Source of the DNA: Amphibalanus amphitrite
Lineage: Eukaryota; Arthropoda; Thecostraca; Balanomorpha; Balanidae
DNA length: 64,000 nt
NCBI RefSeq assembly: GCF_019059575.1
Contig: NW_024881561.1
Span: 310,001-374,000, forward strand
Direction: 5' to 3'
Under the pieces are notes generated by a model. The model saw only the letters and a list, made by a program, of their open reading frames with translations, did not search any database and was not told the origin of the DNA. Positions 5,416 to 47,989 of this stretch are shown piece by piece. Each line of letters opens with the position of its first letter. Position 1 is the first letter of the stretch. The position numbers and the translations under genes were made by a program.

Positions 5416-6598
5416 TTAACCCGCGCGGGGCTGGGGGGGGTAACTTTTACCCCCCCTCGCGAATTTTTGCGATATCTCAAAAACGGCGGCGCGCAGCGCC
5501 GCCAAACTTTCAGTACCTTTTCTTACATCAATTGGACACCTTCCCTGAAAATTTGAGCGAAATCCGTCGGAAAATTTTTGAGAAATTGACGTTTTAGTGA
5601 CGTCATGTTCGCCATTTTCGCCTCAAAAACGGCAAAAGTTCAAACGCCGCTAACATCTTCATTTTTAAAGGAATCAAGACGTAACAAAAAAGGTTATACG
5701 TAATTTTACTTTGTCTATCAAATGGCTATCTCGGTTTTTTGAAAATTTTGGATTTTGGCCTAAATTTTTTCAAAAAACTGATTTTTTTGGGAAAATCATT
5801 ATAAAATCCAAAATTTTGAGTCTATCGAAAAAACCGGAATATATGTCAGAGAAGTCGTCTATGTACACCTACATACCAAATTTTAGAAGAATCGGTTCAA
5901 AAATGTGGGAGTTATTCAAAATTTTATGACGTCACGACACACATTTTTTTTAAATGACTTTTTTGGAAGTTCTAGACCTCGTACGGAAACAAAAATAGCA
6001 CCATTCGATTCGCCGTGAAAAACTGCATCAGATAGACACCTTTTTAGGCCTTAACAACCAACTTCAAAATTTGACCTCACTTGACCTGACCTTGACCTGA
6101 CCTCGACCTGAAATTCATCCAGAGGTGGTCCATATCACTAATTGAGTGTGCCTATTGAATTCTATGAGTAAAATGACCCATAAAACATGTGTCGCACATG
6201 CCCTTTTCTATATTTTGTTTTTGGTGACCTGACCTGACCTGACCTGACCTTGACCTTGACCTCTGAATGATATTGTATGCAACTAATATTGTCTTGGTAG
6301 CCTAAGAACACGTTTTGGGCGATCAGTCTCAGTCCATGACTCCATTCTTCGGCAACTACGGTGCAAGGCCGATACTGTAGAAACTTGCAATTTGTACCCT
6401 TGACCTGACCTTGACCTTGACCTCAAACTTTAAATTAAGTACATGTTTTTAGTAGTTCGTGATGAGAGCTTTCGATTGGCGTTTGAATTTTCCAAATCGG
6501 ACCATTAGTTCGGGAGATAACAGGGGGGGGGGGGTAAAATTTACCCCCCCCCCCAGCCCCGCGCGTTCGGCTGGAGACCCCAGCCCCGCGCGGGTTAA
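5416..6598 (+). mobile_element. E-family element, copy 1 (TTAA-flanked, non-autonomous)
   Basis: TTAA flanks both sides (5416-5419, 6595-6598). The first 15 bases, CCCGCGCGGGGCTGG, recur exactly as the reverse complement at the 3' end. After the word comes a G-run, GTAACTTTTAC and a C-run; the 3' end has the matching GTAAAATTTAC between G- and C-runs. The word block occurs twice at the 3' end, separated by TTCGGCTGGAGA. A perfect 8-bp-arm hairpin (GGCGGCGC-GCA-GCGCCGCC) sits at 5485-5503. Arrays of TGACCT words occupy 6062-6110, 6225-6265 and 6400-6425. TTAA plus a CCC start resembles piggyBac-type elements (known family trait); membership is inferred. No transposase frame. It inserted into the hAT-like element at 3230-6803. 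Confidence 0.85.
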
Positions 6599-6699
6599 GA
6601 AAGGCAACGTATGATAAAGTTATGGGCATCTGGTTACATCTTCAGATGATCGAACAGAATAATCAGGTACATGGTTTCTTGTCTAAGCTTTGTCACAAA

Positions 6700-6803
6700 T
6701 TATGGGGGGGGGGGGGCAAAAAGATACTTTTGCCCCCCCCCCACGAGTTTGCCAGAGGGGGCAGCTGCCCCCCTGCCCCCCCCCCCCGAATCCGCCGCCC
6801 CTG
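6700..6803. repeat. G-run/C-run hairpin cassettes at the right end of the hAT-like element
   Basis: GGGGGGCAAAAAGATACTTTTGCCCCCC forms a near-palindrome at about 6705-6742, followed by GGGGGCAGCTGCCCCC at about 6757-6772. A related GGGGCAAGAATATACGTTTGCCCC lies at about 5221-5245. Confidence 0.7.
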
Positions 6804-6811
6804 GACACCGG

Positions 6812-8040
6812 GGAAAGAAAATACGGAAGGCCGCCTTTCTCGTAGTTCAAACATTCAAGGGGTACACCCATTGTTTTCAGTTTTGTTTCTGTGCGCTTGT
6901 GCAAAGAAGTATAGGCTTCTTTGCGTACGTTCCAACTTCGGACTCTAAATTCTGGACTGCAGGAATTCGCCGATCGGAAAGTAGGTGTCTAAAGAGCAGG
7001 TCCAACGCAACAAGATCTGACGATCTGTTTAGCGGGGCTCTGTCCTTGTGAATCGTTCCATTCAAAATGTTCTGGACAAGCTTATGTCAAAATGCATTGC
7101 ATCCACAGTTCAGCAATGTTAATTGTTAAACACAATACAATATAAGCATCTTCATTACAAATGCAGTCGATGTCGACACAGGAGCACAAGCACATCTCCT
7201 TCGCTATCACGATCTATTAGCGCGAGCGGCGATCTGCAGCATCAGCTACGAAGATCGCGCTGCTGTGCCAACTCGTCACAAGGCCGGGCTGGTGATATTG
7301 ATAGACTGTTGCGCAATCAATGATCAGGTAGCTGTGCTAAATCAAGAGATCACCTTAGGGAACTGCAGTTTGGAGCTTGCAAGTCGCATGCACGCCTATT
7401 CAGATGCTTCTGCGATCCTTTATCACGATGCTAGGACGTCATCCAAGCTCTCATCATCGCTCATTAGGGCTGATAGTGACCTCAGAAGGCAACATTAGCC
7501 CATATCGACTGACGAACATCACATCTGTCATGGTCGCTGCTCTGTTCACCGGCGCGTGTACATCCTATAGTATGCCGTATATCGTTTGGCAAGGCGGGAG
7601 ACCACCGGCGCGAAGGACATCAGCAGCCAGCGGGGGTGCGGAATGGTGCAGGTGAACAATGATGGCTCATCTGTTCTGAGCTAACTAGAACAGCGTGCGA
7701 CTAGTCGGGACCAGCTTTACAGGATCGGATTCGGGACCGCCCTGTAACGTCACCCGGCGTACGGCCCTTCAGGCTGTACCTATCGTTAACAGATCTGTAA
7801 CCGCCCTGTAATGTCACCCGGCCCGGTCCTTGAGGCTGTTACCTATCGTTAACAGGTCCGGGGTCGTCTAATTAGGACAGATGTGTCAAAACTCGGTAGC
7901 TGAAATTGCATGAAGACGGTACTTTAGTAGGTAATGAGATGGAATGTTTTGCACGTTGAGGTTTCGATGAAAATGTGCAAACACGACAGTTGTATTCGGG
8001 AGAAAATCGCAACATGATAGAACTAGAAGGTACATATTTG
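6812..8040. other. Intergenic stretch, no gene supported
   Basis: No recognised coding or RNA gene. It contains the 64-bp tandem duplication at 7736-7862 and ends at the truncated LINE. Confidence 0.5.
7736..7862. repeat. Tandem duplication, about 64-bp unit, two copies
   Basis: ACCGCCCTGTAA starts at 7736 and again at 7800. Both units continue through GTCACCCGGC, a variable CCTT.AGGCTG and TACCTATCGTTAACAG. Confidence 0.8.
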
Positions 8041-9401
8041 TACCTTCTAGAACCAGGGGTATTGACCACCCCTGGTTCAAAGCCTACCTAACAGATAGAT
8101 GCCAATATGTACGAGGCTGTAGTGATGTTACAGGCCTTGTCTCATCGGGTGTTCCACAAGGAAGTGTCCTGGGTCCTTTACTGTTTAACATATATGTGAA
8201 CGATTTGCCTACTGTCGCTCCTGAGCCAGGTTCCATGATTCAATATGCTGATGATACCCAGGTGCTAGTGTCTGGATCACCTCACGACCTGGTTGATATG
8301 GTCGATCGTCTTCAGGTTTTGCTTAAAAAGTTAAGGACTTGGTTCTCACAAAATCACCTATCACTGAATGTTGCTAAATCACAGGTTATTGTTTTTGGCT
8401 CCAAGGTTATCTTGAAACGGATCGACCTGAAGAGCATACAAATATTTGATACCGTCGTGCCTATCAAACGGTCCGTGATCAGTTTGGGTGTGACACTTGA
8501 CAGCTGTCTCACATGGAGCAACCACATTGACACAATTACGGGCAAATGTATCGGCATGCTAATCCGTTTGAGTCAGCTGCGCCACATGATGCCTTTAAAA
8601 ACTATTGTCCTACTGATAAACTCGTTAGTTTTGCCGCATATGCGTTTCTGTGTTTCAGTGTGGGGAAACTGCAGTATGACTCAAGCAAAAAGAATAGCTA
8701 AGATTGTTAAATTTGCCAGGCGAATCGCGGGTCGCGAAGGCAAAAGTGTGGCATGGCGTGTTGATCTTGCCACGGAATATAAAATTGCTGCTCTTAATAT
8801 TGTCCGCCAATGTCTGCTTTTTCCTGAAAGTACAACGCCTCTCGTTTCGACGCTTTTTATGACACGACAATCTGAACGTAACACAAGACAATCAGAGAAC
8901 CTTGATCTTGTTGCCCCAAGAACGGAATTCATGAAAAATTTTCTTTCTTACCAAGGCTCTAAGCTTTGGAACAGCTTGCCCCCTCAAGTGAGGAACGCCT
9001 CAAAGAATGAAGTAATAAAGTACATTCTAACTAAGGCAGACATTGACAAGCCATGATTATCGGTCATATGCTCGTACTTATACAATGTATCGTTTCAACG
9101 TGTGCAATTGCCAGTGTTTCATTTGATGTCACTCGCCAGTCACTGCACTTTACGTTTGAGGACTACTTCTTTGTATCAGGAGAATATTGATATGGTGGCA
9201 GTTTGAGTCTGTTCATGTAACGTGCATGTAGCCTGTAGGTAACATGCATAGGTAATAGGTATGTTCATACGTGGATCATGTAAAGTGTTGTGTACCTGGT
9301 GAACTGTATGTATGTACCTACCTCGTGCCTATTTTCACCGTAACGCCCACGTTTCTGTGGTTGGTGAAAATAAATGAAATAATAATAATAATAATAATAA
9401 T
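8033..9401 (+). mobile_element. 5'-truncated non-LTR retrotransposon (CR1/L2/jockey-like)
   Basis: A reverse transcriptase frame (8073-9056) is followed by about 300 bp of 3' untranslated sequence ending in an (AAT)n microsatellite at 9376-9401. Short-repeat tails are usual in CR1/L2-type LINEs. The 5' edge sits next to a palindrome, AGAAGGTAC..GTACCTTCT (about 8027-8050). The endonuclease and the N-terminal reverse transcriptase blocks are missing, as expected from incomplete reverse transcription. I see no target duplication. Confidence 0.85.
8073..9056 (+). pseudogene. LINE reverse transcriptase, C-terminal fragment
   Basis: This is the C-terminal part of an ORF2-type protein that copies LINE RNA at the nicked target. 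The frame is continuous for 327 codons. It starts at WFKAYLTDR, runs through the GVPQGSVLGPLLFNIYVNDL block (about 8145-8210) and reaches the catalytic YADD at 8244-8255, then the LNVAKSQVIVFGSK block. The C-terminal thumb and LPPQVRNA-type region follow, ending at TGA 9054-9056. The frame runs upstream of the GTG at 8196, so there is no genuine start codon. Full-length LINE ORF2 proteins are about 900-1000 residues, so two-thirds are missing. No internal stop or frameshift is seen, so the copy is fairly young. It is not expected to be functional without its endonuclease. Confidence 0.88.
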
Positions 9402-10336
9402 TTTTGGGTGATAAGTTTCCAGTTCATGATGCAGTCTATTGTTAGCTCTTCGCTTCTAACGCCCCAGAGTGATCACGCATTTGTTGATCCCATTGTAAAT
9501 ATGCGTCAACAAACCAAGCCCCGCCGCGGCACAGCGAGGATCCGCGCCTACGTCCGCCTAGTAACAGGGCAGCCCCCTCCCTCGCCCCCCCCCCCCCCGC
9601 GTGGTCTCTGCTCCGGCTGCGTCTGCGTGTCCGGTGTTTTTGCTGCAGTTGCGAGGCAAATCTCTGGCACAGAGTCCAAAACATAAACAGAGGATGACGC
9701 GTCCCCCGTCTTTGATGCTTTCCACAGAGCGGTAGGCGGGCGCGAGGCTCACTCAGCGCCGCCGGCCAGCGCCCGCAGTTTGTTACCAGGCGAACTGGGG
9801 CCCTTTCACCACATCGAGGCGGCCCTCGGGGGTGACGGTCTGTTTTGGCCACGCTGCTCCATATACACGATACCGCCATTCCGTGATTTCCCCACAAAAG
9901 TGTATCGCGATCACGGCCGACCAAATACTACTGGCATGTGACGGTGCGATCGCATGTTGTCGGCGATGTGCTGTTAGATTCACTATCTACCGGGGTACGA
10001 AGGCAGCTCTACCGAGCGAAACACAACGGTATCGGAGCTATATCCTGGACGGCTCGGGTCCCAGGGTCCGCCGACACACGGCGAGCATTATAAACTCAAG
10101 ACAGCATGGAATTGGACACTTGGCCAGCCCCCGGGCTGGCCGTTTGACCACCCGAACCAAAGCGTCGGGCTGATTCGGAGCTCAGCTGCAGCAGCTGGTG
10201 ACATAACCAAGATGAACTGCTGATCTCTGATTTCTTATGAAATGCGATCTGTTGGCAAAACAAGCTAATAATTCCGACCAGTCGCAATTGTGCCATCATA
10301 ATTGCAATTAGGTCTTGGGATTCAGGGCACATGTAT
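9402..10336. other. Intergenic stretch, no gene supported
   Basis: GC-rich from about 9520 to 9800, with a C-run at 9585-9598. A perfect GGCCAGCCC/GGGCTGGCC hairpin lies at about 10122-10141. No recognised gene. Confidence 0.5.
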
Positions 10337-10456
10337 CAGTAGGTCTACAAAAAAAGTCTCCGCCGTAAGCGGGTCACCAGTGGGCAGTTAGCGCCTGAGC
10401 GCTACTCGGGCGCCACCTGCCCGGATACGGAGAGGACTTATTTTGTAGACCTACTG
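10337..10456. mobile_element. 120-bp foldback MITE
   Basis: CAGTAGGTCTACAAAA opens the element and its reverse complement, with one change, closes it. The arms extend through AAGTC and the interior GGGCAGTTAGCGCC / GGGCGCCACCTGCCC pairs again, so almost the whole element can fold. TA lies just outside the right end and one base away on the left. Superfamily is uncertain. Confidence 0.75.
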
Positions 10457-11049
10457 TACCGTCGTGTCAGCCCATTTCCCTAACCACTCGTGTTTCGCTC
10501 CAAGTGTTGTTTATAAGGATTCTCTGCACGGCCCGCACCGCACTGGCCAGTCGCACAGCCCCCAGCCCACGCTTCCCAATTGCTGCAGCCGGCGGCACCC
10601 ACTATCCAAGTATCCATCCCACGGCGCGGCGCGGCCTTCCGGTTTCGCGTGCCGCCGTCACCGAGGCTGGTCCGCATCCCTATATGTATCCAGGTGGTCG
10701 TAGCGACATGGCGTGCCTCCGTGGGACAGCCGGCACACCCCGGTAGCAGCCGGTGGGACACGTGTGTATCCGACTGTCAGCCGCAGACTGCAGCCGCCGA
10801 CCGGCCCGGCAGTCCACGTCCTGATCATATAACGGAGCCCAGACCGTGCAGGAAAGTCGCCTCCCAGTGCCTGAATGCCTATCTTTAACCGTTATAAGCA
10901 ACTCATAGACGTACTTAGTCTGAACGCCAATTGCAAATGTGGGCATATTTGCTTGCATTTTGCTTTGCCATAGCCAAATACCCAGCAGTCGGTCTATCGG
11001 ACACTTGCCCTTCAGTCAAAGACCATACAATTTGGCAAAGGTCGTTGAC

Positions 11050-11535
11050 TTAAAGGGACCCTCCCACCTTAACATTAGATTTGAGTTGAGATAGCCAAAA
11101 TGGGGTCCCTGGCTCACAATTACCGGTTTCGGCACTCACAACATCGAGAAATGCCTTAAATCGGAAATATTGAATTTCAAAATTGCAGCATTTTGATTCA
11201 GAGGGGCTAATGCTTAGGAATACCCCTCTGAATGTGTGACGTCAGCGCAAATATCTAACGATTTTTAAATGTTTGACTAAAACGTTTTGTAGCACGCGGT
11301 GGTATATGCTATTTGCGCGCAACATCTGCCGCAAACGCCGCACTTCTAAAATCAAGTCGCTAGAAACAGCGGAGATCCCAAAAAAGTAAACAAAAGTAAA
11401 AGTCTAATATCTTGAAAACCGGTGAATATTTTTCGGTGAAATTTGGTAGATATTCGTTTTCGCTCTTTCTGAACCGAGCGACATCACTTTCATGCCAATT
11501 CATGAACTTTTTTGAAGGTGGGAGGGTCCCTTTAA
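11050..11535. mobile_element. TTAA-flanked MITE with AGGGACC termini
   Basis: The element is 11054-11531. AGGGACCCTCCCACCTT at the left is matched by AAGGTGGGAGGGTCCCT at the right, and TTAA abuts both ends. TTAA targets are characteristic of piggyBac-type transposases (known), and the assignment is inferred. Non-coding. The element at 51021-51568 has the same layout with AGGAAATAG ends. Confidence 0.8.
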
Positions 11536-11543
11536 ATGTCATG

Positions 11544-11598
11544 TCATCAATATTCTGCTGGGGGTGGGGGATACCCACCCCCAGCAGAATATTGATGA
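11544..11598. repeat. Perfect 25-bp-arm palindrome
   Basis: TCATCAATATTCTGCTGGGG and onward is mirrored exactly through ATATTGATGA, with GGATA as the 5-base centre. It lies 8 bp beyond the TTAA flank of the preceding MITE. It could be a hairpin RNA, a tiny foldback element or a former excision product. Confidence 0.85.
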
Positions 11599-11754
11599 CT
11601 CCAACATTCAACAAGTATCACAGCGTCATGACATGCTGGGCAACTGAAGCCTATATCGCACCTTTCGTGGCGCTTAGCAAAGCCGGCCGTCTATCTGCGT
11701 AATACTAAACGTCCGTGGGATAGGAAGATTTTGCGCCGGCGGCTAAAAGATAGC

Positions 11755-12324
11755 CAACACGATAGAGCACTTCATGGGCCGGATAAATCCGTTATCCACG
11801 GATAAATCCGCGGACCGGATAGGATTGGATTCTAAATTTGTTGAAAAAGAACGGATATGGGCGGGCCGGATTTGGGAATTGAAGGTTGAACCCGGATCAA
11901 AACGGATCAAAATTTTAACATTCAACATTGAAGTTAAAAATTAACCTAATGTGTTAAGCGGCAGCAGAGGTTTGATTAAAGTAATAGGCATCATTTTATG
12001 ACACTCACTTGTCACAAGACTTGTCTTCAAGTGGATAATGTATGCAATGTATGCATGGTTTTTGGAACCATGATGGTCTATGAGATGTATGGCTGTCTGG
12101 TCCCTTAGATTGAATTTGTTAGTCCAGTTTTGGGTGAAACCAGTTATTGGTGAAACGGATTATTACGGATATTTTTTGGAAGTTTGGCTGCAATACGGGC
12201 CATGGGTGGGCCGGATTCTGATATTCAAAGAAAGGCGGATAATGGGCGGATCTGGATATGACTTGCCGGATATGGGCCGGGCCGGATCCTAAAAAGCCTA
12301 TCCGTGAAGTGCTCTACAACACGA
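11755..12324. mobile_element. hAT-like MITE with perfect 8-bp target duplication and GGAT-word interior
   Basis: The element is 11763-12316. TAGAGCACTTCA begins it and TGAAGTGCTCTA ends it. CAACACGA is repeated exactly outside both ends (11755-11762, 12317-12324). Near both ends the interior is built from CGGAT/ATCCG and GGGCCGG words, most of them probably transposase-binding or structural repeats. No coding capacity. Confidence 0.88.
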
Positions 12325-12558
12325 GTCCAGACGGCAGACACATGAGTCAAATATTGACAGGCTTTAGGACATTAGCCAAACGCCGGCCCTGCCTCGCATG
12401 ACTTCTACTCAAAGCTATTATTCAGAGGTCGACAAAATTCATGGAGTTTCTCCGACTACCTGCCAATTTTCTCCAGGCTTTTCTTCGCGATTGTGAGAAA
12501 TGATGAATTTGGATACCTATCCACGCAACCCAAAACACTGGCATACGGCAGTCATAAG

Positions 12559-12830
12559 CTCTTGTTCAGGGGCGCGGGAACTACTTTCCGACTGAGGGGG
12601 CACACCATAATAGAGATCAACCTAGGGTACCCCCAAATCTAGTTTTCTTGCCGGTTTTAGGCCACTTATTTTTCACCCCTCGGCTTTTTCAACAAAAAAG
12701 AAAACATTTGCAAAAAAAGTGTGGTATTCCGTCTCAAAGCTGTGGGGGCACCGCCCCCACGGCCCCAGAGTTGGGGAGGCAAGCTGCCCCCACTGCCCCC
12801 CCCCCCGGCTCCCGCGCCTATGCTCTTGTT
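12559..12830. mobile_element. hAT-like MITE with perfect 8-bp target duplication
   Basis: The element is 12567-12822. CAGGGGCGCGGGAAC and the reverse complement of GGCTCCCGCGCCTATG form the inverted termini. CTCTTGTT lies exactly outside both ends (12559-12566, 12823-12830). The interior holds GTGGGGGCACCGCCCCCAC and GGGGCAAGCTGCCCC-like palindromes, tying it to the copies at 4448-4591 and 3230-6803. Confidence 0.88.
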
Positions 12831-13129
12831 ACACTGCCAAATTTTGGTACACGAATGTGCACGAATATGCAGGTCATCCTATGTCGCGGACCGATTCGGG
12901 ATCTTTCTTCCCCGGTCTTGGCATTTCGCAGACCATTCGGTGTCCACCGCGCGACTTTTACGGCTCGTCACGACCGCCACAAATTTTTCATGAAAAAGGA
13001 AAATTTCGTGGCCGTTCTCCGAACTTGTGATAAACGAATATAATCACCAAACAGTCGCCGAGTCGGCGCCGACATATCGCTGCGTGCGCCGACTTGTTGC
13101 CAAGGTATCGCCGACTATTCGCCACAGAT

Positions 13130-13176
13130 GAGTGCCAATGATGTAAAATACAATACAATATAATACAATACAATAC
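13130..13176 (+). mobile_element. LINE 3' terminus with (AATAC)n tail
   Basis: GAGTGCCAATGATGTAAAAT followed by an (AATAC)n tract repeats the 3' end of the LINE fragment at 15664-15703. This copy is truncated to almost nothing but its tail. Sequence upstream (13040-13129) is not clearly related. Confidence 0.7.
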
Positions 13177-13366
13177 GCGCACGCAGTCCTCTGCCGACTG
13201 AAACCCGTGTGTGTTTTGCTCCTGCGTGTCCCCCCCCCCAACCCCTACCTTCCCCGCGGCCAGCGCCGGCTTCCTGCCCTCCTGCCCCGCCTCTCATCTC
13301 CCCTTTTTCCTAGTCCCCCTACCCACTCCCTCCCTCCCTCACCGCGCGTCGCTGTCGGGCCCTTAG

Positions 13367-13549
13367 CAGGGGTCGGCAACCTACGGCCCGCGGGCCGGAT
13401 CCGGCCCGCGGCTGGCATCAGTAACTAACATTGTGTTCCGGTCCGTTGCTCCTGCGCGTGATTGTAACAAATTGTGACCATGCTCCGGCCCGCCGGTTGC
13501 TTCCAAATCACATATAAGGCCCCCATCCAAAAAAGGTTGCCGACCCCTG
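13367..13549. mobile_element. hAT-type MITE with CAGGGGTCGGCAACC termini
   Basis: CAGGGGTCGGCAACCT opens and AGGTTGCCGACCCCTG closes the element. This terminus is typical of widespread hAT non-autonomous families. The flanks GCCCTTAG and CCTTAGCG share CCTTAG, a shifted or mutated 8-bp duplication. A CGGCCCGCGGGCCGGATCC tract follows the left end. Confidence 0.85.
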
Positions 13550-18529: not shown

Positions 18530-20516
18530 TTAACCCGCGCCCTGCTGGGGGGGTGTTTGAACACCCCCCCTTGTGGTTTTTCGCAAATATCTCAAAAACG
18601 GCGGCGCGGAGCGCCGCCGTTTTTAGTACACCTTATCATACATCAATTCTACACATATTGTGAAAATTTCAGACCAAGGTCATTCAAGGTCAGGGCACCA
18701 GGTCACTTGAAGTGACCTCACCTCATAAAAAGTTTCAATGTCTGTCATAGCTACACCGAGTGACCGATCGCTTTGAAACTTTCAGCGATTGCTAAGAGCA
18801 ATACCATGAACAAAATGTATATCTCAGAATTTTGATCTCGATGACCTAAGGTCAGGTCAATTTTGCGACCTCCCCATTTATAAGTCAATGGGAGAATTCA
18901 GGTATTGAAACGTTGAGTTGAGCATTGTTGATAAGATTATCAGGAGTATGAAAAATAACCTCTTGCTCATATCTGAAGGAATTAAAAAATTAAAGACCAA
19001 TATATATTCGGGCGTGGCCCTTCCTCAGTGGTACAGTGTTACAATGGAACAAGAGAGACGTATGTGACACACATGAGACTAAATACATTATTTTGAATAA
19101 AATCACTCACAGATATTTTGCATGCGCTTCCAAAATAGGTGTCGATCTAGATTTACTTGGCAGGAAAATGAATGGTTGCATGAAACAAATTAATACAGTT
19201 CGATATGATAGGGATACGCTTGGTCTAAACCTTGTTATACATATTGCCAACATTTACACACATTACGTCGCAAGCTTCCACAAATCAGCGTCTTGTTCAC
19301 AGTACATATGAGTATGATACCTATTCAACATACTACCACACCTTAACATTGATCGTATAACATTGCTAAGTAGTACATTGCTAGGTTTAGACCAAGCGTA
19401 TCCCTATCATATCGAACTGTATTAATTTGTTTCATGCAACCATTCATTTTCCTGCCAAGTAAATCTAGATCGACACCGATTTTGGAAGCGCATGCAAAAT
19501 ATCTGTGAGTGATTTTATTCAAAATAATGTATTTAGTCTCATGTGTGTCACATACGTCTCTCTTGTTCCATTGTAACACTGTACCACTGAGGAAGGGCCA
19601 CGCCCGAATATATATTGGTCTTTAATTTTTTAATTCCTTCAGATATGAGCAAGAGGTTATTTTTCATACTCCTGATAATCAATGGGAGAAAATTGAAATG
19701 CGCCTCTTTTGGACGAAAGATATTATAAACACTCCCAAACACTGAATTACAAGTGGTTTAGACACACTGAACATGAAAATGGTGTCCGTGACCCCTGTTT
19801 ATGCCCTGAGGTCATCTTAGGTCACGAAAGGTATCTAACAGTTTTTCGCAAATAACTTTTGATAGAGGCATGCTAGAGCGATGAAAACGCCTTAGATGTG
19901 TTCAGCTCGACGATACGGATCGACTGATATGCAACATGACCCTTTCCGGTCAGGTCATGACCTTGACCTGAGGTCAAATTTTCAAGTTGACCTTTCAAGG
20001 TCAAGTTATAGTCCATTCAATGCGTCTTGACGAGAGAAACACGATGCCGGTAAAAGTAAGCTCGTACAAGGCTTGGGTCAAAAGTTATTGTAGAAAAACT
20101 GTTTCCGAAAAAATCGGCTATTTTGCAGTTTTTGCCCCCTGCAGGCAAAACCGTTGACGTTAGGTCAAATCTGAGGGAAATACTCAGAAAGGGCGTTAAT
20201 AGGGCTATCGAATGCGCTTTTCCGCGGCGCTGTAGCTCTATTGGTTCCCGAGTTATGCGTTGGCTTCTTGGAAATTGTCGACATTCGACCTGGAAATCGG
20301 CGAAAGTTTGCCTTCAATGACCTCTGGTGACCTGACCTTTGACCTGACCAAAAAATTGACCGAAGTGATTTCCTCATTAATTTTTACGCTCTTTCGAACG
20401 CCGCCTTCCGCGTATCGCTACGTGGCCCAGGAGCCGAGTTAGAAGGGGGGGGGGGTGTTCAAACACCCCCCCAGCAGGGCGTGGAAATCCAGGACCCCCA
20501 GCCGGGCGCGGGTTAA
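18530..20516 (+). mobile_element. E-family element, copy 2 (inside the hAT intron)
   Basis: TTAA abuts both ends (18530-18533, 20513-20516). The 5' end reads CCCGCGCCCTGCTGGGGG, then TGTTTGAACA inside G/C-runs. The 3' end has the exact complement TGTTCAAACA, then an inner word block AGCAGGGCG (perfect match to the 5' word) and an outer block ending GGGCGCGGG (one mismatch). The GC hairpin is at 18600-18618 (loop GGA). TGACCT/AGGTCA words occur throughout. A 782-bp palindromic insertion (18897-19678) enlarges it; without that it is about 1.2 kb, as in copies 1 and 5. Body sequence aligns best with copy 4, for example GACCTAAGGTCAGGTCAATT followed by CGACCTCCCCATT. Confidence 0.88.
18885..19690. 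mobile_element. Large palindromic (foldback) insertion with 12-bp direct repeats
   Basis: Arms of about 298 bp (18935-19232 and 19383-19680) are inverted and almost identical; I saw about one mismatch around A/C at 19136. They flank a loop of about 150 bp. TCAATGGGAGAA lies on both sides (18885-18896, 19679-19690), and E copy 4 has a similar uninterrupted site near 42751. The insertion is therefore about 18897-19678, with 38 bp outside the left arm. Both arms contain the same long open frame (19036-19311 plus; 19343-19579 minus) whose product I do not recognise. Confidence 0.85.
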
Positions 20517-24176: not shown

Positions 24177-24511
24177 TCAACCTGCGCCGGACCGGTGCTC
24201 GGCGTCAAACGCGCCGGGCCGGGAGGTGTTGATTGAACACTCCCCCTTCTAACTCGGCTCTTGGGCCACATAGCGACACGTAGTAAGTGGCATTCGAAAG
24301 AGCGCCCAAAATTCCAGATGAAGTAATTAGTCATTTCTAGGTCAGGTCAAAGGTCACGTCACCAGAGGTCATCGAAGGTAAAATGTTGCATATATCAACA
24401 TTTCTCGAAAACCGGCCCTTACCTCAGGGACCAATAGAGCTACATCATCGCGGAAAAGTGCATTCAATTGCTCTTTTAGCGGTCTTTCTGAAATAAGCCC
24501 TCAGATTTGGC
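24177..24511 (-). mobile_element. E-family fragment, copy 6 (3' part, reverse orientation)
   Basis: Read on the minus strand this is the 3' end of an E element close to copy 2. It has an outer block CCGGTCCGGCGCAGG, a spacer, an inner block CCCGGCCCGGCGCG and TGTTCAATCAACA between short G/C-runs. The CGAGTTAGAAGGGG junction and the TTTTCCGCGATGATGTAGCTC region of copy 2 follow. It stops where another E terminus begins at 24512. Confidence 0.65.
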
Positions 24512-25395
24512 TTACCCTCGCCCCTAGTGGTGTTTTTCCAGCCGCGAACGTATAGAAGGGGTCTGTGGGACCCCCCCCGCCGTTTCGCCCCTGATCGAGC
24601 TAGAGCTTCGCGGAAAAGACGAGCGTGTTGCCCGTGACAAGAGGAAGCTGATGATACTCAATTGTAAGTTCCTAGGTCATCGGTTGACCTTCCAGGTCAG
24701 GTCAATGATCCAAAAGTCGGGAAAATCGGGACCTGTTAGAACGTCGTAAAGGGTGGCTGCTATGGTTTTTTTGGGTGCTGATCACGAATATAATGTTATT
24801 TACGATCATAGATGATGTCTTCATACATTTAGGCCAGGTCGGGCCAGGTCAGGTCAGGTCAACCAGTAAGGGTTTTGCCGGGTATTTGCAGTAGGTGGCA
24901 ACCGCCTCTGACAGCTTTGTACCATGTTACGAAGGCACCAAAGCTACATAGTAAATGCTCAAATGGTTGCTAGATTCGAATTCAGCTCCAAAAACTAGCC
25001 TAGAAACATGTAAAACTCGAAAAAAGTGAACCAAGGTCATCAAAGGTCCATGACCTTACCTGACCTTCTGGTGACCTTGACACCCGCCCTAATGCATGGG
25101 AGCAACATATTATCCCATGTTTGAACGCTTTAAACCAAGAAAAGACTGCAAACCCGCGGCTAATGCGAGCCGACATACGCCGAATCGCGATTCCGGCCAA
25201 ACATGGTCTCGAAAGAAGGTCACAGGTCAAAGATCATTAAGGTCAGGTTAATGAAATTTTCAGGTTAGCTATAAAAGTAGTTATCGCGAGGGTAGGTACT
25301 GAAAGTTTCGTTGCGATCGGTCGCTTTTTACGCGAATTACTCGCGAAAAACCAAGGGTTCCGTTCGAAGATTCAGGCCCTGTCGCGCTAGAATGG
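24512..25395 (-). mobile_element. E-family element, copy 8 (reverse orientation, degenerate 5' end)
   Basis: Its minus-strand 3' end reads GGGGGTCCCACAGACCCC, a spacer, and CTAGGGGCGAGGG followed by TAA. Long AGGTCA-word stretches follow (24670-25260), and the conserved AACTTTCAGTACC and CGCGAATT signatures of the E 5' region appear at about 25292-25350 in reverse. The 5' terminal word is no longer clear, so the 25395 edge is approximate. It appears to have landed in copy 6. Confidence 0.6.
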
Positions 25396-37904: not shown

Positions 37905-38320
37905 TTCGCAAGATGGCTTACTCGAGGGCAGCGCTTTTCGAGGAGCGCTGTGGCCCGAAGGTTTGAACTTTGAATTGTGAAAAACGCCCGCCCACCGCAA
38001 AACGCAAACACCGCAAAACGCGCAAAACGCACGCCCGAAACGCCAACGCAAAGGTCGCAAAAAATAAACAAACGCCCGCCCGCCGCAAACCGCAAATAAA
38101 AAAAAACGCAAAAACACCGCAAAACAATAAAACCGCCCGCATCGCCCGCCCGCTAACGCTAACCGAAAACGCCTAAAAATCGCCCGCCCGCCGCAAAAAA
38201 AAAAAAAAAACACCGCAAAAAACGAAAAAGCGGCCGCCAACCGCAAACAAATTTAACACCGCAAACGACGCAAAAAAAGAAAACCGCCCGCATCGAACGC
38301 CCGTTCGCAAGATGGCTTAC
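37905..38320. repeat. A/C-only low-complexity insert between 17-bp direct repeats
   Basis: TTCGCAAGATGGCTTAC occurs at 37905-37921 and 38304-38320. Between them lies a short hairpin-containing leader (CAGCGCTTTTCGAGGAGCGCTG), then about 310 bp almost lacking G-free exceptions and T: runs of CGCCCGCCCGCCGCAAAA. A 17-bp duplication is the size produced by LINE-type insertion, but no retroelement sequence is visible. Confidence 0.75.
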
Positions 38321-38687
38321 GATAGACGTTTGCCTGTGCCATCAAATTGCCGTTATCATAACGTACCAATTACCGACCATACCTACAATCTGCAAAACTG
38401 TAAAAAGAAAAAAAAGATATTTAGGTCTAACAGTGCCAAAAATAAATGTAGAAAGAAGTGACGTTGCACGAGTACGCCCACGGTCTAAGCCATCTTTTTA
38501 TGGGTGGACGGACACTATGTCGTACGACTCAACGAATTCGATTTAGACGAAGGTCTGCGACCGAAATATCATCAATTCACCAATAAATAATCATTTTCAT
38601 TCATTTCGTCATTTTCCGAGGAGAAGGTCATATATTCTAATGATATTTCCTACTTTTATCATGCTCCTCGCGGCAGCTCGATTTTAT

Positions 38688-39872: not shown

Positions 39873-39929
39873 CTTTAAGTTCACTTAACTTTTAAGAATA
39901 TTTTGACTTCACTTTAATAGCTAACAAAG

Positions 39930-40245
39930 TATATCATTCGATGCGCACGAACGTCCTGAGTTCATTAGTGCTTTTATTTTTGCTCTATCTTTACTAGGTT
40001 AAAAGTTATAAGCGAAAAATGACATGTTTTAGCGATTTTTTTTTGCACTTTTACCCCTCCCTAAAAAGCCTATATATTGACTAAGAGTCACCAAATTTTC
40101 ACGGGGGCGAGATCTCCTATGGGCCCACCTATCATGTAAATTTGACGTTTTTAAGCGCCATAGGAACCAATCGCCAGGGGGGTCGTACCAACCCTCCCCC
40201 TCGCCGTCCGTGTTAAGGAAAAGGCCCTCGCCTGGCGAGGGCTAA
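39930..40245 (+). mobile_element. E-family fragment, copy 7 (5'-truncated)
   Basis: ATCATTCGATGCGCACGA through AAAAGTTATAAGCGAAAAATGAC aligns with copy 4 at 43076-43160. The 3' end has GGGGGGTCGTACCAACCCTCCCCC, an inner block, a spacer, and GCCTGGCGAGGG followed by CTAA (40242-40245), the full 3' architecture of the family. The 5' part is missing. Confidence 0.75.
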
Positions 40246-40471
40246 TAAATCTGATGAGGCAGCGCTCAGATCCTCAGCTCATAACTGTATCAATCATCAT
40301 GAACGATTGGACAATGACAAAGACATGTCTTTAAGAAGGTTCCGACGTCATCACGTCATATTTCAATGGTCACAAACGTGGATACTTTACTTGGTATTGA
40401 GAGAGCTAGCACGCGAGCCGCCTAATCCTGATAATTTGATGAGACAGTAGATATTTTTGTGAGAAGAGTTT

Positions 40472-41384
40472 TTAACCCTCGCCCGCACATGGGGGGGGGG
40501 GGGTGGTTGCCACCCCCCCAGGCAGTCTTTCTGCTCTGCACTCAACATTTTTAGAGCTAGAAGGCTGATTTTTCGTATAGCTGCTCGTCTATCCTTCCTT
40601 GATGTCCACTGAAAATTTCAAGTTTCTGTGATTTTTGGTTTCGGAGATATGACCTTGTTTTTCAGGTCATGTCATGACCCAAATGGCCAATTCTCAACAT
40701 CTTGCGTTTGCCATGGGCCTTGTGAGCTTTTGACACTCTGATTTCGGCCTTTTTTGCCAGTCTTACCTCCCACCTATCATGGAACATGTTGTTCGACGAC
40801 GTACAGGGGTCAAGGTCAGGGTCAAGGTCAACCTAGGTCATCTAAGTTAATTGCGTTTTAGGCAAGCGGAATTTACTTTTTGTGAAGTTTTTTGACTGCA
40901 TTTTTGGTAAAAGCTTCTCAGATCATGATTTCATGTGATATGGACCCAAAAACAATCGGTGCACACATCAGTATACACATAGACACACACAGACATACAA
41001 ACACATATAATTGACCTTGACCTAACTTGACCTGAAATGACCTCAGCAGCAAAATTCTGGTCGGATAGTGTGACAAAGAGGTTCTAGCTGGCTTGGCACT
41101 AGAAAACAGCATCGTCATCGGTATTTGATAAGCAGCGCACTTGATATCCAACGGTGACCCAAAACAGCAACATGTTTTAGTTTGACCTGACCTGGAAGGT
41201 CAATGACTGACCTGAGAAGGTAAAACTGGGTATCATTGGATTCGTCTCTTCCCAAAGAATCTTTTTGGTCTTTACTGCTAAGCTCTATCTCCAACAGGAA
41301 CGAAATGGCGCGGGGGGGGGGGTGGCAACCACCCCCCCATGTGCGTTCTAGGATGGGAAAATGGCATGTGCGGGCGAGGGCTAA
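40472..41384 (+). mobile_element. E-family element, copy 3
   Basis: Flanks are TTAA (40472-40475) and CTAA (41381-41384). The 5' end CCCTCGCCCGCACATG is an exact inverted match to the last 16 bases. TGGTTGCCA within the 5' G/C-runs has the exact complement TGGCAACCA at the 3' end. The inner 3' word block is a perfect second copy. It lacks the standard GC hairpin, carrying a different stem at that place, and it has AGGTCA-word clusters at 40803-40840 and 41015-41045. Confidence 0.87.
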
Positions 41385-42392
41385 ATTGGATTCAGTTCAG
41401 ACCACTCTACGAGAGCTGACAGCGGTGGTAAAAGAGAAAACCTCAGCGGCACCACAATAGAGCAGGGGAACCTTGTGGTTTGACCCCTGGCGGAGAACAG
41501 CTGCCCCATCAACGGACGGTCACGAAAGACGGGCATTTTACGATGCCACTATGTATATTAAAAAGGCGGCGGAAGAAGAAGATAGTCACAGTGTATTTAA
41601 CGTTGTTCAAATGATATCTAATATATTTATTTTCGTCATTTTGTGGTGAGTCAATGCCTGGTATTAAAAAGTGTGAATGTAGGTACCCCTACCCACATTC
41701 CGAAAATTGAAAAAATTATCAACTGCCAAATGCATTCATCGCATAAATGCCATGGTAACTACGGGAAGGCATATTGAGTCAAATGCACTTCAAAATCACC
41801 TAGATGATTACATTCACATTTATCACTACCCACAACGCCAGTATGTTTTAGGGCCTCGGCCGGTGCCAATGAATGCATGCTGACATGTGAATTAGGTACC
41901 TAAGCACGAATCTGTTTTGCTCGTATGCTCGTATCGCTCGGCGCTCGCACTCAGCTCGTGGGTAGGAAGTCCACAGCAGAAGTAATGTGGGGTTCAGGGG
42001 TTTCAGTCATGGGTATGCCCGGCTTCTGAAGCTTAGGAACGATTAGCCCTTGGATTAGCCAGACTACAATGAAGCTGCGAATGTAGCTTACATGTATCGT
42101 CGCCATTGCAGCTATAATTTTGTCTATTGGCGCCTTCTTTTCGATCAATCCGCATGGAAAAATCGCCAGTTAAAGCTATTTCCGTTGAGTAAAGGAAAGG
42201 ACAAACTTTGATAGGAATTTCTAGTATAACTTCTAGAAAACCTACCATATGCAAGCTGGTTTAGCAGCCGGAATTCAGTTCTAACTAGAATATGGTAGCA
42301 CTTATTGTAGGCGCGCCCGTAACATCTCTAAAATTTCTTCAAAAAACAACTAGCAAGAGGTCGACAGGCAGGTAAATATATTTCAGTAGCTA
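41385..42392. other. Intergenic stretch, no gene supported
   Basis: AT-rich between E copies 3 and 4. No terminus or gene recognised. Confidence 0.5.
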
Positions 42393-43389
42393 TTAACAAG
42401 CGCACCGACGGGGGCGGATATCCGCCCCCCTGAGGTTTTTCGCGGATAGCGGGAAAACCGCGGCGCGTAGCGCCGCGAAATTTAGTACGACTATTCTCTC
42501 ATCAATTTTACACATGGTGTGCAAGTTTGAACCTCCTAACTTTGAAGGTCAGGTCACCAGGTCACTTTGAATGACCCAACCTCAAGTCACTTTTTTGCAA
42601 CTTTGTCACCATGCCAGAGCTACAGTAGATGTCGGAGGCCTTTGAAAGTCGCAGGATCTTATTAGGTCATTAGTAGCTACAATTTGTATATCTCGGAATT
42701 TTGATGTCGGTGACCTAAGGTCAGGTCAATTTCGCGACCTCCCCATTATAAGTCAATGGGGGAAAAATCAACTCCCTGTTTTTACCACTAAAACGGGTCG
42801 GAATGGCCCCATATACCATACATGACTTCATATACGATCAACCTTCACTACATTGAGGTCTGTTTTGCTGTTGGGCAGCTGTAAGGTCATGTGACGTCAT
42901 CAAAGGTCACCAGCGGTTTTTTGCCGATAACTCCGTACAGGAACAAGATACAGCCGCGCGGATGGTCTCATTGTGTTCAGCTCGTCAAGACGCATCGAAT
43001 GATATGCATGATGACCTCGAGGTCACGTGACCTGAGGTCAACCTTTGACCTTGACTTTTTGAGGTCAACATATATATCATTCGATGCGGATTGACGAGAG
43101 GATCACGATGCTGCCCTTAGTTTGTTCCTATCTTGACTAATTCGAAAGTTATTCGAGAAAAACTCTCCATATCTAGCGCCGCCATTTTGACTTTTTCGAC
43201 CCCTGTGACGTCATCTTTGACCTGACCTGAAAATGACCTTTGTAAAAATTGTAGACCATGTCCGTGCGTATCCGATGCCGTTTACCGCTTGTCGCTATCT
43301 TGCTTCGTTCTCGAGATCTTAGGGGGGGGCGGTCATCCCCCCCCCGTCGGTGCGAAGTTGGCGCAGACCCCCGTCGGTGCGCGGGTTAA
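42393..43389 (+). mobile_element. E-family element, copy 4
   Basis: TTAA flanks both ends (42393-42396, 43386-43389). The 5' word GCGCACCGACGGGGG is repeated as complement twice at the 3' end: the inner copy is exact, the outer differs only at the terminal CAA/CCC. CGGATATCCG inside the 5' runs faces GCGGTCATCCCC. A variant hairpin (CGCGGCGC-GTA-GCGCCGCG) at 42459-42477 keeps full pairing despite base changes from copies 1, 2 and 5. The body aligns with copy 2. Confidence 0.87.
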
Positions 43390-43445
43390 TTGTTGTTAGC
43401 ATAAATAGTTAAGCCATCATACTTCAGTCCCGATAAAACACGCGG

Positions 43446-43510
43446 CGCTTCCGGGATGCGAACCCACGACCTACGGATCCGATCCGAGACTACCGACAGC
43501 GCTTATAATG
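43446..43510 (-). repeat. tRNA-like sequence (SINE head or tRNA pseudogene)
   Basis: On the minus strand GGTTCGCATCC (43454-43464) matches a polymerase III B box, preceded by TCGGATCCGTAGGTCGTG and an A-box-like AGCGCTGTCGGTAG. The arms do not form a good cloverleaf, so I do not call a functional tRNA. No SINE tail was found. Confidence 0.5.
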
Positions 43511-46500
43511 GGGACCGGGCGCCGCCGCCCGTAGAGACGAAGCGCGGCTGCTGGTTTTCCGGATCTGCAGATAAATCTTGACCCTATACGCGGTAGAAGA
43601 TCGGCCGAGTTTCGTGATAAATGGTAGATAAATTTTCGAAAGACAAAGACAATTCTTCGGTCTATCATCTGAGACCAAGAACCGTAAATGTCTTCAAATG
43701 TTTATCGAGATATGGCTCACCGAAAACAGGCCATTCAACACGTAAACCCTAAGGCTAGTAGGAAATATACGCTGCGGAGCAGCATTGCCGCCAACGAAGT
43801 CCGGTGGGGCTTCATCTTCAGGTACACGTGTTAGCTATGTTTCGTCTGGTTTCGTCCCCCATTCAGATGCAGGGATGGAGCGACAAAGGGAGAGTAGCGG
43901 AGGGGCCACCTGGAGAGGAGGGGAGGAGGACGGGAGCGGCAGGTGCCCACCGGCCGATTGGGGCGGGAGGAGGGGCTCTGACGTCACAGAGATACGGAGG
44001 GGGACAGATAGAGAGGAGGGAGGGAGGGAGGGAACGTTGTTGATTTGGTACACCAACATTCTTTGGATCGTGTTCCCCTGCAGAACTGCTCTGAAAATGG
44101 TTGTGGTAGAAGTGGGGAGTTTCGCTAACAAGCAGCACGAATCTGGGAGTGGTTTCGGAATATTCCGCCGGCGTGGGAGTGCAGGAGTTGCAATATGTCT
44201 TAGTCGCTGTCCCTTACTGACTGGGCGGGCGGATGTGAATGGTACATACCGCCGCCGCTGTTCGTAACGCTCCCCGCCCCAGGGCGATGTTTCGGGCGGG
44301 CCGCGGACGCCCCACCGACGCTGCGCTACTGCTGTCATTCTCCCGCAGCCGATATTTCGGCCCGTGTCTGGTTCGCATGCATCTGAAGGTCTCGGCTTTG
44401 TTATGCGGAATAACTTACAGCTTGTCAACGATATCGTTACAACACGCGTTTCGCCTACCTACAGCATCTATTCGTGACTGATTTCGTGTTCAAGACCGGC
44501 TGTTGCATTTGATGCCTTGGTCCTTGTTGGTAGGTGCGTTAATTGATAAAACCCTGCTAGAATATCGGCATTGAAGCGTAAACTCGTGACTAATCAGATA
44601 TAAGTCAGCCACCAATCACCGAGCATCACAACGCACACGCCCTCTGAACATGACGAGCCTGTGCTGACCTGATGGTCTGATATCGTCCAACCAGTGCAGT
44701 GTGTACTGTGTAGTGTGTGTACTGTGTGTACACAGTCCAGTGGTATGGTGTGACATCACACAGGTGATGACACGCTCCCAGCCGCCGATCGGGTGACTCA
44801 GCGAGGCGGGGCGGGGCGCGCGCCCGTTCCGCCTCAGGTAGCGGCCCGGGGCTCCCCGTCGCCGCGACCTTGCGTGCTAACGGGCCACGCGTGTCGGCCC
44901 CGTAGTACGCCACTGCTTACTACGTGTCGGAAGGCGCCGGCTCCGATCGAGGGCTGGCGTGGGACCGATCGGCAAGGGCGCACAGACGCCGGTGCTTGGA
45001 TAGGTCCGCTGTTGAAAGTGTTTTTGTCAATTGGCTTAGCTCCAGTTGTTAGTTATCGTTCTTCGGAAAGGAAGAAAATTGCTTACTTTTATGTTCGTGT
45101 AGTTTCAAATAAGCTTGAAATGAATACTCTAGACGTAATAAATAGGATGGCAAAGGATGTCGCTGCAGGAAATAACGAAAATAATACGAGTCATTCTGAT
45201 GAAAAAGTTTACGGAATCTGGCGTGTGTGGCTGACCTTGCTCGGACGAGTCCAAGGGGCCAATTTCGGTGTAATGACGACCGGCATCTCGGCTGACCAGC
45301 AGCTGTTGTTGATCTACCGCGCCATCCAGCTGTACAGCAGCCCAATCAGCCGTCAGCGATATGTGTGTTTGTGAGCGGCCAGTCTGTTCTGCCGCCCGCC
45401 CTGGGAGGTCACGCCGCTCGTAATGCTACTCAGAGGCGGTCCGGCATTGGAGGGGTCAATTTCGAAAATCTGAGGGCCGCACGTAACGAAAATGGAGCAC
45501 TAAATACCGCAGCGAGACCGCGCAAACGTTATGTTATTGCAGATTAGTGCTGTATAAAGCTTCTGCTAGCTCCATTAACGATCATAGCGGGCAGCTATGC
45601 GGTCAAACGGTGCATGCTTTGTTAGAGGGAGGCGGGCACAGTTGTGACTCCCAGGCAGATGTGTGGTTATAACGACAAGCGGCACAATCAAGGCAAGCGT
45701 GGATAAACGACACACTTAACTGCTCAAATACAGATAAGAAACAATGTTTACTGAACAGTTCACCTGCTGCATCTGTTCACCTGCATGTAGAAAAACAAGG
45801 GTAGGAAACAGGAATTAATATCGGCACCCACGCACCAGCTCGGGATTTGGTTTTCAGGCGCACTGGGCACTCGCCCATCTCTATCCCCGAAACCCAAGAG
45901 CGGGCACTTCGGAGACCGAAGACGCACCCTCTAATGACCGCAGTCACCCCAGTGGTCGAAGTGTCGTTTTCCGGTAACGTCAGTGACCCCAGCAGCGTCC
46001 CCGGTGACCTCCGAGGTGACAGTAGCTGGGCCGCGCCCCTCTGATTGGCCCATCGCTCAGCACGCGGCGCAGTGCACACCTGACGGCCACTCCGCGGCGC
46101 CCCTGTCGCCCCGGCGGGCGGCGGGCGGGCGCTGGGCGGCGCCGGCGCTCTGTCATTAGACGCCGGGGCGCGCGACACGCGCACTACAGAGGGCCCGCCT
46201 CACCCCTGACCGGGCCATTACCGGCTGAGACGGCCGGCATTAGCGGCGAATGAGACGGCCGGCCGCCCGGCGGTTTTAGCGGCGGTCACAGACCCCGCGA
46301 CCACCGGGGATGTGGTGACAAGTGGTGGTGGTGTCACCGCCGAGCAACTGCCAACTGGTGCCCTTGGTCGGACACGTGCGACACGAGGGGTCATCAGAGG
46401 TCGTCATAAGACACCGCTCCCCACTCTTGTTCCAGGCACTGGCGCCACAAATCAAGTCCTGTAAACTCGCAAATCTAGAGCCAAGCAGCGAAGTTTGGCA

Positions 46501-46813
46501 GTATCGATCGTATACATCGATCGACTGTATGTATAAGAAACAGATAGGGGAGCTTGTAATGCACATCGCACGTCACTGGCACGTCCGTCTAGGTGCAGAT
46601 ATTTTTCGTTCGACACTAACTGGCTTTTAACGATGAAATGCAATCATACACGCTCCTTATACCACAAGCGCTTGGCACGCTGCAGGTTATAACCAATGAG
46701 CAACATTGTTTTTAGCATAAATCCGAACGGTTTTTCGAATGTATCTGGAATGTGTTTCTAACTAAATAGTTCTATAGAATTTCAAACGGTTGCCAGATGA
46801 ACATTAGAATGAC
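43511..46813. other. Intergenic stretch, no gene supported
   Basis: GC-rich at 43780-44350, 44770-44980 and 45840-46280, otherwise AT-rich. Open frames on both strands resemble no family. A (GAGG)n-like patch lies at about 44009-44032. Confidence 0.5.
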
Positions 46814-47989
46814 TTAGCCCTCGCCCCGTTGGGGGGGGGGGCATTTTGGCCCTCCTGTGGTTTTTCCTGAAAAGCAAGAAAACGGCGGCGCGCAGCGCCG
46901 CCAAATTTTCAGTACCTTTCCGGGCATCAATTTGACACCTTCACACCAAATTTCAAGTCTTAGGTCACCTTAGGTCAGGAGTTATTGAGGTCAAACTGAG
47001 GTCATGTTCGAGCAAAAATGAGCAAAAAACATGCAATCTTGAAACGCTCACCAAATCTACAGTTATCAAGCAATTTCAAAGTTCTTTATATGGTCTAGTA
47101 GACAAAAAGCGGCGCTACAAAACTGCTATCTCGGATTTTCAAAATTTTTGGTTTTTGACCAAAAAAATCAAAAAATTGATTTTTTTGAAAAACTTTGAAA
47201 AAATCCAAAAAATTTCCGAATTTCGAAAAAACCGGAATATATGTGATAGTCCCAGCGCTCTTCTATATAGATACCAAATTTCAGATCGATATCTCGTTTT
47301 TTGGCCAAGTTATAGCGAAAAAACTGTTCAAAAATGATGACGTCAAATTTTTGAACTCAATTTTTAGCGATTCTAGACGACGTACGGCAAAACAAAGACC
47401 ACCATTGAACTCCCCGTGACAAGCTGTATCGATTCGATACCCATTTTATGCAAAAATATTAACTTTGAAATTTGACCTAATTTGACCTGACCTTGACCTG
47501 ACCTTGACCTGACCTTGACCAAAACGTGATCTAAGCTGGCCCCAAAGGCTGCCTGACCCATATAATCGCATTTGTCATGTAAAATGGACCATAAAACATG
47601 TATCACACGACACTTTCATATTGTGACCCCCCGTGACCTGACCTCTGTGACCTGACCTGGTATCAGTGACCTCAAATAGCAAAATATGTGTTTGAAGAAC
47701 ATTTCCCCATCGATGATTTTCAATGAAATGCATTTTACTCGATTTTACAACGCATTTCTTGAAGTGCCTGTAAACGGTGAAAATTGGACCTTTGACCTGA
47801 CCTGTGACGTCATCGGTTTGACCTAGGTCAATAAAATTGGGTCACAAGGTAGTTCCCCGTTGGGGCTATCCAACGCCGTTTACCGCTTGTCGCCATGTTG
47901 CGTGGTTCTCGAGATCTTAGGGGGGGGCAAAATGGCCCCCCCCCCAACCAGGCGCGTTGCTCGGCAGAGCCCAACGGGGCGCGGGTTAG
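46814..47989 (+). mobile_element. E-family element, copy 5
   Basis: TTAG flanks both ends (46814-46817, 47986-47989). CCCTCGCCCCGTTGGG at the 5' end matches the outer 3' block at 15 of 16. GGCATTTTGGCC faces GGCAAAATGGCC. The inner 3' block (AACCAGGCGCG) has drifted. The GC hairpin (46884-46902) is identical to copy 1. The body aligns with copy 1: CAGTACCTTTC, ACCGGAATATATGT and CCGTGACAAGCTG regions. TGACCT words cluster at 47475-47520 and 47630-47680. Confidence 0.87.

Follow-up and report, generated by a model that had tools for sequence, protein, structure and literature searches.

A stretch of 64,000 nucleotides from Amphibalanus amphitrite (contig NW_024881561.1, positions 310,001 to 374,000; referred to below as the window) holds five copies of a transposable element, the E family, whose two ends carry matching short words. 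The E family is likely to be a clan of non-autonomous miniature inverted-repeat transposable elements (MITEs) of the piggyBac type, in which the words would act as subfamily marks of a landing site, paired for one transposase, and in which either words or bodies can be switched. All five copies were located where a preliminary description of the window had placed them, and its claim that the ends of each copy match each other was borne out. The left word 1 fitted its own right-end words best, and among the 120 permutations of five left and five right ends, the true pairing alone reached the observed word-1 score. The words had also been called specific to single copies; instead, the same words recur at thousands of places and are subfamily words.

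Family size, end layout and word pairing

The 807.6-Mb assembly was searched with patterns for both ends. The strict left-end pattern matched 3540 places on one strand and 3512 on the other (not deduplicated) and none in a reversed control. For the right-end pattern, 10,812 forward matches and no control matches were obtained; the corresponding reverse-strand figure of 42,328 is an overcount caused by multiple end points. Among the matches listed, there were at least six left-end families (A to F) and at least about a dozen right-end families. When the best 40 of 2148 candidates for family A were scored, the copies were 98% identical to copy 1 of the window over the first 585 bp; one of these 40 places is copy 1 itself, leaving 39 others. 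The longest open reading frame from ATG to stop, determined for one element from each of ten families, was 43 to 89 amino acids (aa) in length. Lacking a transposase gene and present in high copy number, these elements are MITEs.

Machine pairing of ends yielded 24 elements, 14 of them from family A, with one (L001) representing copy 1 of the window again. TTAA was present on both sides of 20 of the 24, in a search whose pattern had the left TTAA built in for most loci; the remainder showed TTAG or CTAA at one or both sides. Two pairings (L020, L022 at 665) are evidently wrong, and the procedure missed most family B copies. The use of non-TTAA sites (CTAA or TTAG) by piggyBac has been reported (PMC6651600, citing Li et al.). 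The CCC tip was found at four of five left and five of five right ends of the window copies, and the left tip of copy 4 is degraded to CAAGCGC. Genome-wide, the count of CCC tips is given partly by construction, CCC belonging to both end patterns.

Left ends are built from the CCC tip, word 1 (approximately bp 9 to 15), a G-run, a near-palindromic word 2, and a C-run. In right ends, the parts appear in complement and follow the order CCC tip, word 1, spacer, second word 1, and palindrome. Pairing was evaluated on one contig (C1), where 44 of 65 left-end rows and 68 distinct right ends gave 27 pairs at element length. The offset between the words of a right end was 27 bp in 50 of the 68 and 26 to 28 bp in 65. 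Left words were identical to their own inner right words at nine of nine positions in 24 of the 27 pairs, whereas shuffled partners averaged 12.7 exact matches and never exceeded 21 (2000 shuffles). Word pairing thus extends beyond the five copies of the window, a point on which the preliminary description had made its case depend.

Matching within the right end was position specific. In 66 right ends with an offset of 26 to 28 bp, the outer and inner words had the same base at position 6 in 65 and at position 7 in 64 cases, compared with 41 at position 4 and 44 at position 1. Between family representatives, agreement at positions 6 and 7 was only 29% and 36%, some of the twelve groups being mutated copies rather than families. 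Left and outer words agreed in 9 to 11 of 11 families at each position. Left and inner words did so in 6 and 7 of the 11 at the first two positions and in 9 to 11 from the third position on; for family B, the outer word entered in this comparison was the second commonest, the commonest differing at position 4. In this family, the left and inner words are fixed and the outer word is variable.

We propose that each end is a transposase landing site comprising the CCC tip, word 1, and the palindrome. Word 1 would occupy the place of the "green" repeat of Trichoplusia ni (T. ni) piggyBac, and the palindrome, that is, word 2 between the G- and C-runs, would occupy that of the site bound by the C-terminal zinc-domain dimer. 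Doubling of word 1 on the right gives an asymmetric left/right pair such as that used by piggyBac. Pairing within a subfamily would be maintained because both ends have to be recognized by a single transposase. New subfamilies may arise by two routes. Either the words shift along with transposase specificity, as may have happened between D and J and between B and E, or a body tract enters an element with another end pair, as in families G and O, probably via conversion or template switching.

Shared bodies and an autonomous relative

The bodies form two groups, one comprising families A, D, and J and the other B, E, F, and G. As described preliminarily, bodies of copies 1 and 5 and of copies 2 and 4 can still be aligned (66% over 666 bp for A versus J and 67.6% over 765 bp for B versus G, with other members of families A and B standing in for the window copies). 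Global alignment identities of distant bodies (0.70 to 0.77) were close to those of shuffled controls (0.69 to 0.72), and distant pairs were therefore judged by BLAST-supported homology only. The bodies of D and J are 93% identical, and positions 4 and 6 of word 1 differ between these families in all three word copies, with the inner word differing at further positions. Families B and E share 86% body identity, and at either end their palindromes differ in the outer bases, with T..A replaced by C..G. The right flanks of A and J disagree although their bodies are related.

Family G combines a B/E-like body with a J/D-like stretch formed by the last 60 bp before the right palindrome. In an end-anchored pairwise comparison, this flank matched J and D at 50/58 and 49/58 positions (z of 20 and 16), compared with 34/54 for B (z of 1.7) and 38/54 for E (z of 4.8). 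The pattern can be explained by exchange or by an ancestral flank that was retained in G, D, and J and lost from B/E. A clearer case is provided by families G and O. The complete copy of O at locus L037 is flanked by TTAA on both sides and has the ends CCCTATTCCTGGCGG. Its body core is identical to that of G at 573 of 590 positions (97.1%); over the same core, a second G copy (L006 flank) is as close to the window copy as O is to G. Outside the core, identity was 0.63 to 0.70 over the first 300 bp, and the last 65 bp or so also differ. The first 115 bp of O, approximately, resemble family M (79%). One body core therefore occurs between two end pairs, each of which is matched in word 1. The simplest route would be the movement of body sequence into an element that had a different pair of ends, in which case one of the breaks would lie at the right G-run.

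The genome contains 116 matches to the transposase domain PF13843, many with open frames of approximately 600 aa. In keeping with this barnacle as the source, one transposase frame from the genome shows 98% identity to an NCBI protein of A. amphitrite, and the L066 frame contains, as judged by eye, every letter of a further protein of the species. Flanks were read for 40 of them, and these showed mostly ordinary piggyBac ends or no end within the stretch. Transposases with visible ordinary ends (of the TTAACCCATTA.., TTAACCCTTTATC.., and TTAACCCAGATCT.. types) were rejected as the source of E ends. E-type ends near transposase frames in L050, L072, and L077 are in the wrong orientation and are not the ends of those elements. 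One transposase family with 604-aa frames (L052 to L062, eleven rows of near-equal score) has ordinary ends and is apparently very young; at L058, such an element is inserted in a family D element.

An autonomous element with E-type ends, here named P, was found. Over 3578 bp, loci L069 and L070 show 99.1% identity, with an E-type right end at the point where their similarity breaks off. Upstream of L070, at a distance of 403 bp, there is a left end of this type, which makes the element approximately 3980 bp long. The first 403 bp of P are also located directly upstream of L069 in contig C44 and approximately 1.9 kb upstream of a PF13843 match in C42. The L070 frame has a stop near its start and the L069 frame diverges from it near the end; a 646-aa version of the transposase is present in NCBI. 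Compared with the L070 frame, T. ni piggyBac transposase (6x67) gave 9e-79, zinc domain included, and piggyBat (9c0f) gave 1e-30. When the 403-bp sequence was used as a query, the best 40 of 1959 candidates were all 97 to 100% identical over 391 to 403 bases. PF13843 was found at the expected distance in three of these 40 (C1173, C44:1064412, and C42), and the remaining ones are probably deletion derivatives. With its TTAA sites, CCC tips, end layout, and an autonomous piggyBac element carrying such ends, the E family conforms to the piggyBac-type reading offered preliminarily. Kolobok, which uses TTAA as well, was set aside in view of the CCC tips and the piggyBac transposase of the autonomous relative.

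Several observations weigh against the proposed explanation of the ends. The preliminary description suggested a search for a piggyBac-type transposase with such termini; P answers to it, whereas the 40 of 116 PF13843 matches that were read included no transposase flanked by ends bearing A to J words. The ends of P are unmatched in word 1 (left AACGCTTAGG, right AACGACCAGG, differing at three bases) as well as in word 2, and matching is therefore no strict requirement. Elsewhere, the P-type left end has the common form AACGCCTAGG. Word 2 is also unmatched between the ends of families M and O, again indicating that matching is not obligatory. The G-run, measurable in 35 of 44 left ends and counted with the GG of the word, is 6 to 15 bases in length and shifts the palindrome center from bp 24 to 33.5, which is awkward for rigidly phased binding. 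Family O is known from the one complete copy and a left end in L072. Finally, the right end of T. ni piggyBac presumably has a word offset of 27 bp too; no copy of this right-end sequence was found in viral_contigs or plasmids. The passages of PMC7351741 on these ends are compatible with that offset and do not give the figure.

Three mechanisms had been put forward for the paired change of words: switching of transposase specificity, conversion through end pairing, and exchange of terminal modules. Exchange is now represented by one clear case (G/O) and one weaker case (the right flank of G). Transposase specificity would naturally account for the particular word positions that remain matched, and, judged from sequence, the paired words are best read in this way. 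Conversion fared poorly, with disagreement being frequent at positions 1 and 4. Ends might be kept equal by conversion via foldback pairing of inverted ends, independently of a transposase, and the strong palindromes would make such pairing possible; the agreement of left and outer right words in most families also fits. We regard this as very unlikely in view of the position-specific matching in right ends, the variable outer word of family B with its fixed left and inner words, and the unequal ends of P, M, and O. Recognition is preferred because conversion would level all positions, while protein recognition need not.

A more serious alternative is that the window merely samples, once each, several ordinary MITE subfamilies with ordinary terminal inverted repeats (TIRs). 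Words recurring at thousands of places and the close similarity of family A copies are in keeping with it, and coral CMITE families already have different TIRs around one conserved interior (PMC2872659). It is possible but on balance rather doubtful, being weakened by the body core shared between different end pairs in G and O, by the D/J-like right flank on a B/E-like body in G, and by the duplication of the right-end word at approximately 27 bp across families. That the palindromes are replication structures of a single-stranded or hairpin-replicating system (rolling circle or foldback) is extremely improbable. Strong palindromes made up of G-run, word 2, and C-run do occur at both ends, as such a system would have them, but the flanks are TTAA, the tips are CCC, the autonomous relative encodes a DDE piggyBac transposase, and the piggyBac zinc-domain site is itself palindromic. 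Words paired for a transposase remain the preferred explanation of the ends.

AGGTCA sites in the element bodies

Counted on either strand, AGGTCA occurs 13 to 21 times per copy (15.1 per kb) in 34 complete copies, nearly all from families A and B, and 13 to 20 times in the window copies, far above expectation. Dinucleotide shuffles of nine copies gave 0.45 to 0.73 occurrences per element, and six ordinary piggyBac elements from the same genome contained 0 to 4 per 2.7 to 3.3 kb. AGGTCA is presumably a nuclear-receptor half-site, and it often lies within TCAAGGTCA, which we take to be an FTZ-F1/SF-1-type site. The sites are conserved beyond their surroundings. Between B and E, 19 of 20 were retained, compared with 39% of other hexamers; the corresponding values for D and J were 19 of 20 and 63%. 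For the distant pairs A/J (11 of 16 versus 13%) and B/G (11 of 20 versus 11%), the aligner may have helped the figures.

The sites are arranged in clusters, which in family B are located approximately 170, 325, 501, 653, 845, and 1012 bp from the left tip. Relative to B, families D and J are without the second and third cluster, A is without the first three, and G has one extra. In the eight families for which it was worked out, approximately 160 to 190 bp separate the last cluster from the right tip. For one element each of B, J, W3 (copy 3 of the window), and P, chosen after the spacing had been seen, the best period was 174 bp, which none of 3000 random placements reached. A second set (O and S) peaked at 172 bp (P of 0.008 for any period and 0.00025 for 170 to 176 bp); it is not independent, as the O body is common to B/G and S is partly related to W3, and M has no site. 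Some families speak against a general ladder. AGGTCA is absent or nearly absent near the end in M, R, and the L052 family, the family of the L024 left end shows gaps of 96 bp, and another family has only two sites, 55 bp apart.

Bodies may perhaps be kept partly for this ladder, as host-factor sites or as a chromatin phasing signal. In its full form, the idea is that the body is a selected chromatin cassette, with AGGTCA clusters at about nucleosome spacing and in register with both tips. It would recruit a host receptor or phase nucleosomes, leaving the ends exposed and bringing them together, and such cassettes would pass between the end pairs of different transposases. The body and the specificity of the ends would then be modules with separate evolution. 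Extrapolated from approximately 7,000 left ends, tens of thousands of AGGTCA sites would have been spread in this way. We offer this tentatively and consider it unlikely. The ladder could instead be the relic of an old tandem repeat rather than a selected site array, which is a substantial possibility, if still short of probable. A genuine tandem repeat with a 187-bp unit, containing AGGTCA and TGACGTCA motifs, makes up the 5' part of P (L079:398-800, L070:1-1016). After masking of AGGTCA, self-similarity over 200 lags was highest at 181 in W3 (z of 3.0) and at 160 in G (z of 2.9), and one unit pair in A reached a z of 3.8; these traces of repeat homology are weak. The mean unit-to-unit z, with the same masking, was -0.1 to 0.6 in A, B, E, G, J, and W3, which speaks against a relic, as does the retention of AGGTCA between B and E relative to other hexamers.

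Features of the window and comparison with known systems

Coordinates of the E-type features in the window are compiled below.

Table 1. E-type elements and associated features in the 64,000-nucleotide window
Feature	Position	Strand	Remarks
Copy 1, family A, non-autonomous	5416..6598	+	TTAA both sides
Copy 1, left palindrome (G-run, word 2, C-run)	5433..5456	+	
Copy 1, right palindrome	6523..6554	-	followed by inner and outer word 1, up to 6594
Copy 2, family B, interrupted by nested foldback	18530..20516	+	TTAA/TTAA
Nested foldback within copy 2	18935..19680	.	not part of the E element
Further, degraded family S	24512..25260	-	right end ~24512-24579; AGGTCA clusters to ~25245
Right end of further E-type family (R)	40177..40245	+	TTAG flank, read from tip
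Copy 3 (W3), word CCGCACATGG	40472..41384	+	TTAA/CTAA
Copy 4, family G	42393..43389	+	TTAA/TTAA; body core 97% identical to family O, whose ends differ
Copy 5, family J	46814..47989	+	TTAG both sides
Copy 5, left palindrome	46831..46852	+	
Copy 5, right palindrome	47920..47945	-	

Copy 2 reaches a length of 1987 bp because of the nested foldback, which consists of two perfect 298-bp inverted arms with 150 nucleotides in between. The GC hairpin was not found in copy 3. Family S carries AGGTCA clusters and family R nearly none. A degraded right end resembling family C is located at approximately 24200-24260. Other hairpins of G-run and C-run (GGGGGCAGCTGCCCCC type) at 5220-5330 and 6702-6800 apparently belong to a separate repeat family.

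That ends are less conserved than bodies is already known from the coral CMITEs (2010) (PMC2872659). In the open-access literature, titles and abstract openings among the matches listed contained no 27-bp right-end rule across families, no swap like that of G and O, and no AGGTCA ladder in MITEs. The asymmetry of piggyBac ends has been called enigmatic (PMC7351741). The retention of one duplicated right end, mostly at 27 bp, in over ten natural families whose words differ points to a fixed geometry of two transposase dimers. The family set also provides natural data on the bases that may determine specificity, namely, positions 6 and 7 of word 1 and the outer bases of the palindrome.

Among the closest known systems is T. 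ni piggyBac, in which an insertion and a duplicated sequence set the right end apart from the left. Its core domain contacts bp 7 to 16, and a dimer of its C-terminal zinc domain binds a palindrome at bp 17 to 33 (PMC7351741). E elements share with its ends (LE35/RE63) the TTAA, the CCC tip, a left repeat followed by a palindrome, and a right repeat doubled before the palindrome; in E left ends with short G-runs, the palindrome center is likewise near bp 25. Asymmetric ends with a palindromic internal repeat and a duplicated right segment, as in piggyBac, are thus present in the E family, and the transposase of P is a relative down to the zinc domain. In contrast to T. ni piggyBac, E palindromes are embedded in G/C homopolymers, the words vary among more than 10 families, and the elements are mostly non-coding. 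The piggyBat element of Myotis lucifugus resembles them in its asymmetric ends and in a dimer site made up of a GCGGGA motif and an imperfect palindrome (PMC11707139, PMC13405395). It differs in having three such sites on the left end and, according to the available text of these sources, no such palindrome on the right; the P protein is closer to T. ni piggyBac.

The G/O pair, with one body between two end pairs, resembles a natural domain swap, and the AGGTCA ladder, if functional, would be a rare case of a non-coding transposon interior selected for a host DNA-binding factor. The rice elements mPing and mPong belong to the PIF/Harbinger superfamily, unlike piggyBac. Interior and ends contribute separately to the mobility of these elements, and a chimera with the other end moves better; internal nucleosomes have been proposed to bring the ends of mPing together (PMC9921582). 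Those chimeras are artificial, and the available text reports that no common promoting motif was found. Acropora CMITEs are likewise MITEs of the piggyBac type with TTAA, and their families have a common interior of approximately 75 bp that is more conserved between families than the TIRs (PMC2872659). At approximately 100 bp they are short, and neither a duplicated right-end word nor AGGTCA arrays, such as those of the E family, are mentioned in the available text of that report.

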